A stretch of 59,837 nt of DNA from Bacillota bacterium (lineage in GTDB: Bacteria > Bacillota > Clostridia > Peptostreptococcales > Anaerovoracaceae). A program made the translations under genes and the position numbers. The stretch lies in the NCBI GenBank assembly GCA_017445315.1, contig JAFSUI010000011.1, forward strand, positions 1-59,837, written 5' to 3'. Positions 20,175 to 59,690 of the stretch are shown here, in pieces. Position 1 is the stretch's first letter. Every line of letters begins with the position of its first letter. The notes beneath the pieces are model-generated. The model was given only the letters and a program-made list of their open reading frames with translations. It had not been told where the DNA came from and did no database searches.

Positions 20175-22691
20175 CTATTGAATATGAACAACATCCATTA
20201 TTTTCATTGTATTTGCGCCATCTGCCTGCATATGTACTAGCTCTGTTCTAACTTCCGGCGCATCTTCTGTACTGAGTTTTTCCGTAACTCTTACCAGAAC
20301 ATAGAAGTCAGATTCACTTGATCTTATTTCACCAATCTTGAGATCCTCTATTGAATAGACGATATCAGGATTTGCGGAAATCGCACTGAGCGATCCATAG
20401 AGCTGCGAGTCTTCAGAGATGAGTTCCATTACTGCGGAGTCATCCTCGTTCAGCTTGCCCATGAGCTTTGAATAATAGGACAAAACTGTATCTACCGCTG
20501 CATCTACATATGTCACTTCGGTTCCGTCCTCTGCAGAATACCAAGCACTGTTTGTGAATGGCGCTGCCTGCTCGATTCCTTCAATACCGTAGTCGGTTCC
20601 CGATGTAAAGAGAATTGACTGATCCTCTGAAACGGCTCCAAGATTTGTTATGCCTGCGCTATACTTGTTAATTGCTGCAGCCGTATCCGAAATCTGTGGT
20701 TCCGATTCAGGTTCAGGCTGTGGATCTTCATCAACCGGAGTCTCAGGTGCAGGATCAACTTGCTCAATTGCACTCTGGTTAAAGAACGGAATATAGCTCT
20801 TTATCTTTTTTGAGATCGCATGATCCGGAAGGAAGATAAGTAGGCAAGAAATTCCTACGATGATGAGAAGGATAACGATTATGATATCAAGAAGCAGAGT
20901 CTTGCATCCGCCGCGTTTTTCGTAATCATAATCATCGTCATCTTCGTCATCAAAGATGTCTTCGTACTTCTTCTTTCTATCTACTTCTACCGCCTGCTCT
21001 TCTTCAACTTCTTCATCTTCTTCATCTTCCGCCGCGAGCATTCCTGCTTCTAGTCTTGCGGCCTCAACCTCAAGTGCGCGGTGCGATGCATTAAGCTTTT
21101 CGAGTTCGGCGTCTATTGCTGCCTCTTCCTGGGCAAGTCTCTCGGCTTGCTCTGCAAGTGCAGTCTTAAGTCTAAGGTCTTCACTAACCTCAGCATATCT
21201 TTCGGAAGTGATTTCAGGCGCAGATGTTTCTGCGACAGGTGTTTCTTCGACAGGTGTTTCTGCGACAGGCGGTTCCTTCGGTGTAAGCGTTGCTGCGGCT
21301 GCTGCGATTGCTGCAGCTTCTGCGGCGAGCCTTGCTTCTTCTGCTGCCTGAGCTTCATCGGCGAGTCTTGCTTCCTCTGCTGCCTGGGCTTCTGCGGCGA
21401 GTCTTGCTTCTTCTGCAGCCTGGGCTTCAGCTGCAAGCCTTGCTTCCTCTGCAGCCTGGGCTTCTGCCTCTGCTGCTACTCTAGCTTCTTCCTCTCGAGC
21501 AATTCTAGCAGCTTCCTCTGCAAGTCTAGCCTGCTCGGCTGCTCTAGCTTCTTCCTCTGCTGCGAGTCTTGCAGCCTCTTCTGCAGCTTTTGCTTCTTCC
21601 TCTTCTAAAGCCTTGAGCGCTTCCTCTGCTGCCTGGGCTTCAGCTGCAGCCTTTGCTGCCGCTTCTTCTGCGGCTCTTGCCTTTGCCGCTGCTTCCTCTG
21701 CGAGACGCTCAGCTTCTTCAGCGAGTCTCTCTGCTTCGTCGGCCTCAGCCTCTGCGGATGCCTTGGCAACCTCTCCTCTCGTCAACGGAGCAGGTTCTGC
21801 TATAACTTCTTCGGCCTGAACTTCGGCGTCAATAGCGCCTTCAGCTTCAGCCGCATCTACTCCCTTTTCAAACGCATGCTCAACAGCAGCCTTAAGTTCT
21901 TCTTTTTCGGTCTGCTCCTGAACCTTCTTTCTGATGCGCTCGTACTCTTCGTCAAGCAGCGCCTGGAACTCTTCGTTCTTGCGGTTAAAAGTATAGAATT
22001 TTTCTATCTTTCTTCCTGCAGGACGAGAAGATGTCTTGGGTGCCGAAGCATCAGTATTAATTCCAAGAGCGGCGTAGTCTCTCTCTTTGATTCCTGCGGC
22101 CTCGCTTGCTGCAGCCTCAATTCCACTCTTGTCAATTTTGTCTATTACAATCGTTCCCTTTGATGGAGAAGGTGCAGGTGCAGGCTTCTCTTCAGGAACC
22201 ATATTTTCATAACTATCTGCGGTATTTAGCGGCGGTATAAAGTCAACCGAGAAAAGTTCCTCGTCATCGTCGTGGAACAAAGAAAGGTCCGAGCGACCAT
22301 GTCTATCAAGTCTCATTGTATGAACAAGATTCCAATCAAACTCATCATGATGCCTGTCTGACTGAATGCGCTCATAAATATCTTCTTCCGTCATTGTGAT
22401 TGCGCGCCTACGCTCCTCGGCAGCCTTCTTTTCTTTTCCCTCAAGAACGGAAGCCCAATCAAAATCTACTCTGTCGGTCTTTTTCTCGTCAGTCGGGTAA
22501 CCCTCAAGATCCCAGTCCATTCCGTCCATGTGGAAGGAGGACTTACTGAACGTAAATCCGTCATTCTTGGAAGATTTTGATGGCGCATCATTTGGCGTAA
22601 CAGAAATGTCCGAATAGTCGATTGGATTACCGCAATCGCTGCAGAACTTCTCGGTACCTTCTAGTTTTTTGCCGCAAACTTTACAATACAT
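20175..22691 (-). CDS. Zinc-ribbon membrane protein with Ala/Glu repeat coiled coil
   Basis: About 838 residues from ATG 22691 (after GGGGAGG). It opens with a zinc ribbon (CKVCGKKLEGTEKFCSDCG). A long charged region follows, then some 200 residues of Ala/Glu/Arg-rich coiled coil including a 12-residue tandem unit (EARLAAEAQAAE, about four copies, 21315-21470). A Pro/Glu/Thr repeat (PVEETPVAET) comes next, then a basic-flanked membrane helix (LLLDIIIVILLIIVGISCLL) and an outer domain of about 170 residues. The domain order matches clostridial zinc-ribbon envelope proteins of unknown function. It is the first gene of the six-gene run. The DNA repeats make it prone to length change. Confidence 0.85.
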   Translation of the reverse strand: MYCKVCGKKLEGTEKFCSDCGNPIDYSDISVTPNDAPSKSSKNDGFTFSKSSFHMDGMDWDLEGYPTDEKKTDRVDFDWASVLEGKEKKAAEERRRAITMTEEDIYERIQSDRHHDEFDWNLVHTMRLDRHGRSDLSLFHDDDEELFSVDFIPPLNTADSYENMVPEEKPAPAPSPSKGTIVIDKIDKSGIEAAASEAAGIKERDYAALGINTDASAPKTSSRPAGRKIEKFYTFNRKNEEFQALLDEEYERIRKKVQEQTEKEELKAAVEHAFEKGVDAAEAEGAIDAEVQAEEVIAEPAPLTRGEVAKASAEAEADEAERLAEEAERLAEEAAAKARAAEEAAAKAAAEAQAAEEALKALEEEEAKAAEEAARLAAEEEARAAEQARLAEEAARIAREEEARVAAEAEAQAAEEARLAAEAQAAEEARLAAEAQAAEEARLADEAQAAEEARLAAEAAAIAAAAATLTPKEPPVAETPVEETPVAETSAPEITSERYAEVSEDLRLKTALAEQAERLAQEEAAIDAELEKLNASHRALEVEAARLEAGMLAAEDEEDEEVEEEQAVEVDRKKKYEDIFDDEDDDDYDYEKRGGCKTLLLDIIIVILLIIVGISCLLIFLPDHAISKKIKSYIPFFNQSAIEQVDPAPETPVDEDPQPEPESEPQISDTAAAINKYSAGITNLGAVSEDQSILFTSGTDYGIEGIEQAAPFTNSAWYSAEDGTEVTYVDAAVDTVLSYYSKLMGKLNEDDSAVMELISEDSQLYGSLSAISANPDIVYSIEDLKIGEIRSSESDFYVLVRVTEKLSTEDAPEVRTELVHMQADGANTMKIMDVVHIQ

Positions 22692-39803: not shown

Positions 39804-39840
39804 TTAAAAATACCGGCCCTCTTCACACGAAGACCGGTAT
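39804..39840 (-). terminator. Terminator directly after repeat array A (minus strand)
   Basis: ATACCGG and CCGGTAT form the outer stem (39810-39816 and 39834-39840), TCTTC/GAAGA the inner stem around ACAC, and TTTTTAATT follows on the minus strand. It begins eight bases beyond the end of repeat array A. Confidence 0.8.
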
Positions 39841-39848
39841 GTAAACCA

Positions 39849-40134
39849 GGTTTTGCTCTGCCAAACTTGGTTTTCTGTGGCAAAGGCGCTCTTTTGCTCA
39901 ATTTCCCGTGGCAAAGGCATACTTTTGCCCGTTTGCCACAGGTTTTGCTCTGCCGCGCTTGATTTTCTGTGGCAGACGCGCTCCTTTGCTCAATTTCCCG
40001 TGGCAACGGCACGCTTTTTCCCGTTTGCCACAGGTTTTGCTCTGCCAAACTTGATTTTCTGTGGCAAACGCACTCTTTTGCTTAATTTCCCGTGGCAAAG
40101 GCACTCTTTTGCCCGTTTGCCACAGGTTTTGCTC
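39849..40134 (-). repeat. 92-bp tandem repeat array A (three units plus a partial)
   Basis: Units begin at 39871, 39963 and 40055, exactly 92 bp apart; a 22-bp partial copy occupies 39849-39870. On the plus strand each unit has CTGTGGCAAA near its start, CCGTGGCAAA in the middle and the inverse TTTGCCACAG after it. On the minus strand the first arm (CCTGTGGCAAA) can therefore pair with either TTTGCCACGGG (near) or TTTGCCACAG (far). The array lies between the abrB stop (40255) and a terminator, so it would be the 3' untranslated region of the relBE-abrB transcript. Short reading frames across it are a by-product: 92 is not divisible by three. The rest of 39719-40254 holds nothing else that I can identify. 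Confidence 0.9.
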
Positions 40135-40254: not shown

Positions 40255-40530
40255 TCATTTACGCTTGCTCTTGCGCCTGCTCTCAGTGATCCAGTCGGCG
40301 ATTTCCTCTTCAGTAGCAAATCCAGCTTTTTTGGCTTTGCCCTTCATCTGCTTCTGGAATTGCTCCAGGGCATAAACCGCCGAGCTAATAACCTTAACAT
40401 TATTTCCTTCAACAATAAACGTGACTCTATCGCCTTCATCTATGCCGAGGACTTCTCTCACCTTTTTAGGAATTGTGACTTGTCCTTTTGACATAACTCT
40501 TACGTCTTTAATAAATGTAACTCGCGCCAT
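40255..40530 (-). CDS. AbrB/MazE/SpoVT-type DNA-binding protein
   Basis: 91 residues. A swapped-hairpin AbrB domain, VMSKGQVTIPKKVREVLGI then GDRVTFIVEGNNVKVI, is followed by a basic helical tail (KMKGKAKKAG-like, ending RRKSKRK). Proteins of this size are transcription factors or MazE/VapB-like antitoxins. It lies 14 bases after a RelE-like toxin gene, forming a three-gene leftward set with relB and relE; no PIN or MazF toxin follows. It may help to repress the operon. Confidence 0.88.
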   Translation of the reverse strand: MARVTFIKDVRVMSKGQVTIPKKVREVLGIDEGDRVTFIVEGNNVKVISSAVYALEQFQKQMKGKAKKAGFATEEEIADWITESRRKSKRK

Positions 40531-41212: not shown

Positions 41213-41300
41213 AACAATACTCTTCCTTTCTATGATTCTTTTACTATATTATAAACAAAAGTGTTGCGATTCGCAACACTTTTATAGATATTACAAAGAC

Positions 41301-41332
41301 AAAATGCCGACCCCCTTTCACAGGAGTCGGCA
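41301..41332 (-). terminator. Terminator directly after repeat array B (minus strand)
   Basis: TGCCGAC and GTCGGCA form the stem (41305-41311 and 41326-41332), extended by CCT/AGG; TTTTGTC follows on the minus strand. It begins 12 bases beyond array B and also lies upstream of the relB start. Confidence 0.75.
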
Positions 41333-41344
41333 CTTGAACCTTGG

Positions 41345-41544
41345 TTTTCTGTGGCAAAGGCGCTCTTTTGTTCAATTTCCCGTGGCAAAGGCACTCTTTT
41401 GCCCGTTTGCCACAGGTTTTGCTCTGCCAAACATATTTTTCTGTGGCAAAGGCACTCTTTTGCTCAATTTCCCGTGGCAAAGGCATGCTTTTGCCCGTTT
41501 GCCACAGGTTTTGCTCTGCCAAACTTGATTTTCTGTGGCAAAGG
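41345..41544 (-). repeat. 92-bp tandem repeat array B (two units plus a partial)
   Basis: Units begin at 41345 and 41437, with a 16-bp partial at 41529. Sequence and arm arrangement match array A (CTGTGGCAAA, CCGTGGCAAA, TTTGCCACAG). It lies between the heavy-metal protein gene stop (41607) and a terminator on the minus strand, the same placement as array A. Confidence 0.9.
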
Positions 41545-41606: not shown

Positions 41607-41942
41607 CTATGTAGTTTGACTTATTTCAGTCACTTTGTATCCCGTATTATCCAGAAGGTTTTTTAGGGTATCATCGCTTTTCTTCACTTTGGATAGAACC
41701 TCTGCTCTCGCTTCACTAAGGTTAACTCTCGCCCAAATATCGTCATCACTATTTAATGCATTTTCTACACGGGCAGCGCAATTGCTACAGCTCATTCCTT
41801 CAATACCTAAATGATATTTGAATGGATAATGTTCCTCATTTCTATCTTTAATCTTATTTGATTTCACAGGTGCGGATGAACCACAACAGGTTGACTTTGC
41901 CTTACCTTTTTTCAACACTTTGATATACACTTTGATATACAC
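41607..41942 (-). CDS. Heavy-metal-associated (HMA) domain protein, CopZ-like
   Basis: About 105-111 residues. A Cys-containing N-terminal tail (KAKSTCCGSSAP) is followed by an HMA domain with the metal motif GMSCSNCAARVENALN near residue 50 and NLSEARAEVLSKVKKSD. It binds and passes copper or a similar soft metal. The start is unclear: the first codons come from a tandem 12-bp duplication (TGTATATCAAAG twice) offering GTG starts at 41942, 41930 and 41918. It resembles the detached N-terminus of a copper ATPase, but no ATPase gene is adjacent. Confidence 0.82.
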   Translation of the reverse strand: MYIKVYIKVLKKGKAKSTCCGSSAPVKSNKIKDRNEEHYPFKYHLGIEGMSCSNCAARVENALNSDDDIWARVNLSEARAEVLSKVKKSDDTLKNLLDNTGYKVTEISQTT

Positions 41943-58266: not shown

Positions 58267-59325
58267 TTACTCCTTATCTTGGTTCCATGCGTATTTGGTA
58301 TATCTACCGCCGCTGATTTTTATTATCTCGTTCTTGTCTAACATATCCGCAAGTGCGCGCTGAATTGTCACTTGGCTGATTCCCGGGCACCTCTCCATTA
58401 GCTCGGTTTTGGTGATTGTGCCCAGGTTGTTTTTAATCACTTCTCTAACTTGGCCTGGCTTGGAAAGCTCTTTGTTTTCTATTAATGCCGTTCTTGACTT
58501 AAGCTCTCTATATGCTGCTATTACTGTTCCGAGAAGATATCTTGCAAATGGGAGATAGTCGTTGCTTCCTTCGTGCCAATTAAAAGAGCTATCCTGTAAG
58601 ACCTCGTAATATGTTTCCTTACTATCTGCAATTATCTTCTCAATACTGATATATTTTCCAACATCGTATCCGCTGCGATATAGAAGAAGTAATGTGAGCA
58701 GCCTACTCATTCTGCCATTTCCGTCGTTAAATGGATGGATGCATAGGAAGTCCAGAATGAAGATTGGGATAAGAAGAAGATCATCAAGCTCTGACTCCCT
58801 GGATGCCCTTTGATATGCATCACATAAATTTGAAATCGCCTCGGGAGTCTCCCATGCAGAAAGCGGTGCAAATCTTACGGTCTCCGTTCCGTCCGGGTGC
58901 TCCTCCGCTATGACATTGTCCGAGCTCTTGAATACCCCGCCTTCTTCTCCAAACCTAAACTTATATAGATCCCTATGTAGTTGTAGAATCATTGACGGTG
59001 TAAGCGGGATGTATTCATAGCTTTCATGAATGGTTGCCAGAACATCTCTGTATCCTGCAATCTCTTCCTCACTTCTATTCTTAGGAGCAGTCTTATCCAT
59101 AACGAGTTTCTTGATTCGCTCTCTAGTTGTAACTATGCCTTCAATTCTGTTGGAAGCATCCGTACTTTGGATCTTGGCAATCTCAATTAAGTGTTCCAAA
59201 ACATCTGACTTCATCGATGTAACAACATTCTGTTCACCTTTAAGCTCATGGATGTCTGTAAGCAACGCTACAATCTCCGGTGTCAGTAATTTATTATATG
59301 TTTCCTTAAAATTAAACTCTCTCAT
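58267..59325 (-). CDS. fic: Fic-domain protein (probable AMP transferase) with C-terminal winged helix
   Basis: 352 residues. The Fic motif HPFNDGNGRMSRLLT is complete at about 214-228. An N-terminal SNRIEG (about 59-64) matches the autoinhibitory (S/T)xxxE(G/N) motif, marking a self-inhibited Fic. A winged-helix domain ends the protein (MERCPGISQVTIQRALADML). Fic enzymes attach AMP to target proteins. It is the first gene of the hsd operon and could regulate it through its DNA-binding end. A promoter and two direct repeats precede it. Confidence 0.92.
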   Translation of the reverse strand: MREFNFKETYNKLLTPEIVALLTDIHELKGEQNVVTSMKSDVLEHLIEIAKIQSTDASNRIEGIVTTRERIKKLVMDKTAPKNRSEEEIAGYRDVLATIHESYEYIPLTPSMILQLHRDLYKFRFGEEGGVFKSSDNVIAEEHPDGTETVRFAPLSAWETPEAISNLCDAYQRASRESELDDLLLIPIFILDFLCIHPFNDGNGRMSRLLTLLLLYRSGYDVGKYISIEKIIADSKETYYEVLQDSSFNWHEGSNDYLPFARYLLGTVIAAYRELKSRTALIENKELSKPGQVREVIKNNLGTITKTELMERCPGISQVTIQRALADMLDKNEIIKISGGRYTKYAWNQDKE

Positions 59326-59440: not shown

Positions 59441-59457
59441 TTTATTTTGATGTAATT

Positions 59458-59488
59458 AAAAACCTCCCGCTAATACATAACGAGAGGT
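59458..59488 (-). terminator. Terminator directly after repeat array C (minus strand)
   Basis: ACCTCTCG pairs with CGGGAGGT on the minus strand, followed by TTTTT. It begins 23 bases beyond array C. The stem sequence matches the terminators at 36400 and 48687. Confidence 0.75.
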
Positions 59489-59510
59489 AATCAACCATAA
59501 TGGTGCTTGC

Positions 59511-59690
59511 TTTTCTGTGGCAAAGGCACTCTTTTGCTTAATTTCCCGTGGCAAAGGCATGCTTTTGCCCGTTTGCCACAGGTTTTGCTTTGCCAAGCTT
59601 GATTATCTGTGGCAGACGCGCTCTTTTGTTCAATTTCCCGTGGCAGCGGCATGCTTTCGCCCGTTTGCCACAGGTTTTGCTCAGCCAAAC
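59511..59690 (-). repeat. 92-bp tandem repeat array C (two units)
   Basis: Units begin at 59511 and 59603, 92 bp apart, of the same family as arrays A and B. The second unit is more diverged (TTATCTGTGGCAGACG, GCAGCGGCATG), yet its GTGGCA/TGCCAC arms stay intact. As before, an intrinsic terminator follows on the minus strand; here no minus-strand gene is visible before the array within the window. Confidence 0.88.

Follow-up and report, generated by a model that had tools for sequence, protein, structure and literature searches.

A regular array of palindromic repeats lies just behind an antitoxin gene in a genome of the Anaerovoracaceae, and the question is whether it works as RNA, as a binding site on DNA, or is there because it moves. 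The surrounding 59,837 nucleotides (contig JAFSUI010000011.1 of assembly GCA_017445315.1) were analysed as a whole and are called the window in the following. We use the term A-strand for the strand that carries the A-runs of a unit, which is the minus strand for the following features of the window:

39847..40134, minus (strand with A-runs): array A, three 67-bp double-palindrome elements with a 92-bp period (TRF, pattern, model R1)
39875..39941, minus: element A1, 67 bp (pattern, model R1)
39942..39966, no strand: 25-bp linker of array A
39967..40033, minus: element A2, 67 bp (pattern, model R1)
40034..40058, no strand: 25-bp linker of array A
40059..40125, minus: element A3, 67 bp (pattern, model R1)
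39804..39842 (about), minus: terminator-like hairpin with T-run, after array A
40255..40530, minus: AbrB/MazE-like antitoxin gene whose stop precedes array A (Pfam MazE_antitoxin)
41349..41540, minus: array B, full elements at 41349-41415 and 41441-41507 plus the beginning of a third (TRF 41345-41544)
41299..41334, minus: terminator-like hairpin after array B
41607..41942, minus: heavy-metal-associated domain gene upstream of array B (Pfam HMA)
59515..59673, minus: array C, two full elements (59515-59581, 59607-59673; TRF 59505-59688)
59454..59491, minus: terminator-like hairpin after array C

TRF delimits array A at 39847-40134 with a period of 92, 3.1 copies, 89% matches and a score of 478, and the element starts (39875, 39967 and 40059) are 92 bp apart. 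A sequence-only reading of this DNA had described three exact 92-bp units plus a partial one. TRF and the pattern search bear this out, the elements being 67 bp and the linkers 25 bp long, and the 'partial' unit corresponds to a linker plus three bases on the left side (39847-39874). The array had also been placed between the abrB stop and a terminator, where a toxin-antitoxin mRNA would have its 3' end, and this position was confirmed on the minus strand, between the MazE-like gene (40255-40530) and the hairpin (~39804-39842). The order on this strand is RelB, ParE-type toxin, MazE-like antitoxin, array A, hairpin and HicB-like gene. The three arrays of the window contain 3 + 2 + 2 full units, and all of them precede a terminator-like hairpin on the minus strand. 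A coding origin was rejected: eight ORFs (62-134 aa) that run into array A or array B have no convincing Pfam match, and the sub-cut-off match of one array-overlapping ORF (CD20-like, E 0.0013) falls into the part outside the repeat. Fic-domain genes adjoin both array C (window 58267-59325) and a single unit in the related genome G008 (L121:3331-4431), which may be coincidence. Elsewhere in the window (20998-21737), short-period repeats (9-72 bp) are dense and may represent a repetitive coding region.

Array A belongs to a dispersed family. A BLAST search returned 16 places on six contigs of this genome (G000), and model R1 adds a two-unit array on a seventh contig (C15). Using a pattern with an internal GTGGCA, 21 units were detected in G000; the pattern allowed 65 to 101 bp, yet every match is 67 bp long (CTGTGGCA...TGCCACAG), and the linkers are mostly 25 bp. 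Because the backwards-read control pattern yielded 0 units as compared to 21, chance is excluded for the family. The earlier reading is right in that the array is not a one-off: it is part of a structured multicopy family in which single units, tandem arrays and half units are all present. Several arrays are located at a contig end or no more than ~1 kb from one (C9 and C6 in G000; C2, C4, C36 and C46 in G003; C14 and C19 in G007), and copy numbers are thus probably underestimates. As a separate observation, the CbiB protein of G000 (L021:2820-3881, contig C33) carries a tandem insert similar to NGDGSTCKKGEGFY; matches to its peptide at three other places of this genome (C15, C7 and C20) give it the look of a dispersed repeat that is coding.

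A search of 13 genomes of the genus with model R1, a model of 36 units, gave 32 matches in G000, 31 in G003 and one in G008, some pairs being one unit matched on both strands. Weak matches appeared in G001 (two, unconfirmed as members) and G007 (one), and weak matches of this model led to arrays that have other arms and the same layout. G003 has arrays with arms such as CTGTGGAATTGCCG, CTGTGGACAA and others, and G007 harbours three families with TRF periods of 91-93, namely A (CGTTCGGCAT), B (GAGGTGCAG) and C (CGTGGGCATCG), which are distinct from arrays A to C of the window. Among nine genus genomes searched, a query of A and B matched 21 places in G007 and three in G002 (family A), and query C matched 10 places in G007 and, weakly, one in G003 (E 7e-5). 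This last match, the weak R1 match in G007 and an apparent C/A hybrid unit suggest that the families with different arms share ancestry, and 'different arms' is therefore a safer wording than 'unrelated'. The hybrid is seen at L244 (G007 contig C183), where family C and family A units stand side by side. For seven of the 13 genus genomes, the queries applied returned nothing, though units with other arm sequences would escape them.

In wider searches, array A had BLAST matches in 3 of 149 relatives; among family-level genomes, 3 of 296 were hit by a looser window-type pattern and 2 of 349 by that of family A, and all of these genomes belong to the genus. By these searches, the repeats are found only within one genus. 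TRF revealed no 91-93-bp array in 400-kb samples of G009 and G012. A scan for the architecture itself (10-bp outer arms, A- or T-runs in both halves) was compared with shuffled sequence and gave 15 versus 1 in 75.5 kb of G003 and 1 versus 1 in 6 kb of G008 (in both genomes stretches chosen for holding units), 8 versus 2 in 171.6 kb of G007, 5 versus 2 in the window, 3 versus 3 in 400 kb of G009 and 0 versus 0 in 71 kb of G001. Over the contigs of named genomes, the strict pattern had 0 matches and the looser pattern matched five stretches, four of which agree by eye with sequences of G003 or G008; the L054 stretch looks like a chance match in a fabG-like gene (named by eye) and was discarded. 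Beside array C78a of G003 (L112 / L051), several copies of a 19-bp mini-tandem, CTGTGGCAAAGGTCAAAAC, adjoin full units.

The layout is common to the families: units of 64-68 bp, mostly 66 or 67, with a tandem period of 91-93 bp, consist of an outer inverted repeat and a central palindrome with A-runs between them. Followed along the A-strand, several families have the order arm, A-run, arm', arm, A-run, arm'. When folded, T3, C2 and family B form two hairpins, and an outer stem enclosing a central hairpin is the preferred form of family A; in this fold set, the ends of a few units (C15, C57, T3, C78b and a family A unit) are off by one to several bases. GTGG in the left arm and CCACAG in the right arm are invariant in 36 aligned window-type units from three genomes (40 script matches less three overlapping mini-repeats and one half element). 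Arms and A-runs are the most conserved columns in this alignment as well as in those of family B (23 units used of 32 matches), family C (13 of 42 mostly overlapping matches) and family A (14 of 17), which suits recognition of the sequence.

Does the unit act as an RNA switch? The sequence-only reading had proposed that one arm is shared by two exclusive hairpins, and this holds: on the minus strand, CCTGTGGCAAA has two possible partners, a near one, TTTGCCACGGG (one G-U pair), and a far one, TTTGCCACAG, and both pairings are seen in folds. In sampled ensembles of the seven window units, the shares of the near form are 1.00, 0.59, 0.85, 0.99, 1.00, 1.00 and 0.19, that is, the near form dominates in five (0.85-1.00), one is mixed (0.59 near, 0.41 far) and the far form dominates in one (0.81). 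With such variation, no tuned balance is conserved. The two-state element proposed on this basis found no support in the covariation check that the same reading had named: 0 of 7 predicted pairs show a compensatory change in the 36 units, the arms barely vary within the window's family, and the alignments of families A, B and C do not support a two-state element either. In family B, 2 of 18 pairs of the near hairpins have a double change (2 cells), and 5 to 16 of 500 shuffles reach the five observed measures, while the far arrangement is no better than shuffles; double changes occur in 2 of 14 predicted pairs in family C and in 2 of 15 in family A. Covariation thus lends faint support to the near hairpins in B and to stems in A and C. 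A known RNA family was also considered and rejected, the sole Rfam match at gathering score in the window being a tRNA; two sub-threshold matches near arrays (E 0.87 and 0.25) were judged to be chance. Window units are without the second inner arm that several families carry, which leaves their shared arm ambiguous. Judging from this comparison, the two alternative hairpins are most likely a relic of a longer two-hairpin unit (arm-loop-arm'-arm-loop-arm') as present in sister species, rather than a switch.

The placement of the repeats was assessed at 52 loci, 44 of which have an upstream gene call. Thirty of these genes are co-directed with the A-strand and 14 are opposite (p 0.011), or 31 of 44 are co-directed when C29b is read with a 248-aa gene instead of the 85-aa call; in this count, the window genes were set by hand. 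For genes ending at most 80 bp away, co-direction rises to 19 of 23 (p 0.0013), a figure counted by eye and including gene calls at C9, C41 and, on the other side, C6 that are without Pfam support, as well as one (C1) that was set by hand from the end of a HIT-like gene. Downstream genes display no clear orientation bias (26 to 21). G is enriched on the A-strand at 27 of 31 sense loci and at 2 of 13 antisense loci; the orientation of the A-strand follows GC skew equally well, so that the directions of transcription and replication are inseparable here. A terminator-like hairpin lies at most 90 bp downstream in A-strand sense at 11 of 45 loci as compared to 5.4% of random segments (102/1899). 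In the other three directions the counts are 5, 7 and 8 of 45, and arrays therefore lie near terminators in general, not strictly before them; some (C33a, C57 and C5a) lie behind a terminator-like hairpin. A link to defence islands was dismissed: many flanking genes are ordinary, although the window's own neighbours are toxin-antitoxin genes.

Strong predicted curvature of the window's family is the most unexpected property of these repeats. In the window arrays, A-runs of at least four are all on one strand, spaced ~20, 31, 21 and 20 bp. This rule is not general, as T-runs of at least four on the A-strand, none of which occur in 11 of 23 arrays, number one to four in the other 12. The A-runs are phased with the helix in the window's family, but mostly not in families A and B. 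For a helical repeat of 10.25 bp, 56 A-run spacings in 28 units have a mean cosine of 0.65 (the units share ancestry, so that the spacings are not independent events), versus 0.05 in the remainder of the window and -0.04 in a sample of G009. By an A-run model, the curvature maximum predicted for an array is above the 99th percentile of 140-bp window segments for 21 of 23 arrays, and by a Bolshoy-type model for 16 of 23, a somewhat flattering comparison which sets the array maximum against single segments. Compared with shuffles of the tiled unit that preserve composition and A-runs, predicted curvature is significant at p<0.05 for 15 of 23 units under the A-run model and for 12 under the Bolshoy-type model. 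Among G000 units these numbers are 6/6 and 5/6, whereas predicted curvature is not significant in either model for 2 of 3 family A and 3 of 3 family B units. In the two window units examined with altered linkers, a period shorter or longer than the natural 92 bp lowers predicted curvature; some other units peak one or more bases off their natural period. Both models use assumed bending parameters.

These observations bear on several explanations. In one of them, near and far hairpins sharing an arm would form a two-state element controlling stability or termination of the toxin-antitoxin mRNA. The occurrence of both folds in window units, the place of arrays A, B and C ahead of terminator-like hairpins and the mostly co-directed genes ending nearby speak for it. 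However, with zero compensatory changes in 36 units, near shares from 0.19 to 1.00, a far form of ~0 in three of seven window units and no Rfam family at gathering score over the arrays, we regard such a switch as very improbable, all the more as upstream genes elsewhere are unrelated (DHFR, UvrC, CbiB, peptidase S41) and the same elements also occur antisense or between divergent genes. The repeats might instead stabilise mRNA 3' ends as simple constitutive hairpins whose loops are A-rich, with selection acting once they had inserted at the ends of genes. Stable A-strand hairpins in many units and the 19 of 23 co-directed genes near gene ends speak for this role, but the orientation may equally reflect a leading-strand bias, as the GC skew indicates, and arrays behind a terminator-like hairpin do not fit; we consider it rather unlikely.

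A DNA-level alternative is an array of curved binding sites for a nucleoid-associated or segregation protein, which would meet the same face of the helix in each unit, 92 bp being about nine helical turns, and would wrap the DNA. The phased A-runs, the extreme predicted curvature in both models and its drop on either side of the natural linker in two window units argue for it. Yet families A and B hold the 91-93-bp period mostly without significant curvature, a single protein would not suit the three different arm sequences of G007, congeners do without the known families, and the curvature itself is a prediction from assumed parameters, which makes this explanation improbable. A related proposal, which we hold to be similarly improbable, is a genus-specific system under selection for geometry, not sequence, in which double palindromes of ~66-67 bp at a pitch of 91-93 bp (about nine helical turns) would be spread by a putative enzyme and be read through DNA shape, while several families with different arms would evolve side by side in one genome.

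That array A is a mobile repeat akin to REP/BIME elements, probably non-autonomous and particular to one bacterial genus, has in our view slightly better than an even chance. The units have a defined layout, are scattered between genes, in many cases directly 3' of one, and occur singly or, with a fixed period, in tandem. An enzyme or DNA-binding protein might recognise the near-invariant arms, possibly as extruded or single-stranded hairpins; spread would be brought about by an arm-recognising enzyme, and recombination or slippage would lengthen the tandem arrays. At its site, an array could then act via stable hairpins with A-rich loops at mRNA 3' ends or, in the window's family, via the predicted bending by in-phase A-runs.

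Several results weigh against the mobile-repeat reading. A search for the transposase family Y1_Tnp (PF01797) identified no mobilising enzyme, with 0 matches in G000, G002, G003, G007 and G008; these five carriers are 75-90% complete, so that absence is not proof. The domain is present in G001, G005, G009 and G010 (4 of 13 genus genomes), of which G001 has only the weak, unconfirmed unit-like matches; a RAYT/IS200 origin was set aside, as it was not found in the carriers. No clean empty site was detected and no target-site duplication could be defined. The single comparable site is the C21b half element, which directly follows a terminator common to G012; G012 is without an element there, and the synteny of G000 ends at this point, which would suit insertion or rearrangement at the element, not a clean empty site. 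At the cbiB site, gene order differs between the genomes compared and no empty site is readable. Curvature is not general, given families A and B, 7 of 13 genus genomes are without a match to the queries used, and the orientation is equally explained by replication strand. A phage or plasmid origin was rejected, array A having no blastn match in plasmids or phages. Likewise, window-type and family B patterns matched no viral contig, and the family A pattern matched four, all without A-runs and in coding-looking sequence.

If the layout persists as arms are replaced, the repeats provide a natural experiment among close relatives, with families that do or do not have predicted curvature or the two-hairpin form. 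One could then test why palindromic repeats are maintained in bacterial genomes, and the mobiliser they suggest is one that differs from the usual RAYT enzyme. Literature searches, judged from their search records, found no description of these repeats.

Known systems share some of their traits. Like CRISPR loci, the arrays are regular series of repeats and spacers, but the linkers of one array are nearly the same as each other and each repeat contains two palindromes. They resemble MITEs in being non-coding, dispersed and bounded by terminal inverted repeats, but form tandem arrays of fixed period, and a non-exhaustive search revealed neither a parent element nor a target-site duplication. 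CGTC-tagged REPs without a dedicated transposase have been described for Proteobacteria and four other phyla, with stems of 8-9 bp and loops of 4-5 bp, in a paper whose main text mentions neither Firmicutes nor Clostridi (PMC3733652). They are likewise palindromic repeats with no transposase gene attached (PMC3733652), but the units described here have neither the CGTC tag nor such stems and loops.

REP, BIME and REPIN sequences are GTAG-tagged palindromes associated with RAYT transposases. In contrast to REPs and REPINs, units here end in CTGTGG, CGTTCGG, GAGGTG or CGTGGG instead of carrying a GTAG or CGTC tag, no Y1/RAYT gene was detected in confirmed carriers, and the double unit is mostly 66-67 bp long with a period of 91-93 bp. 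Common to both are short extragenic palindromes in many copies, several families per genome and regularly spaced clusters, and many dispersed extragenic palindromes, some of them in regular clusters, are what we found. The repeats are a real class of palindromic tandem repeats which, without the tags or a detected transposase of REP and BIME sequences, stand near them in kind.
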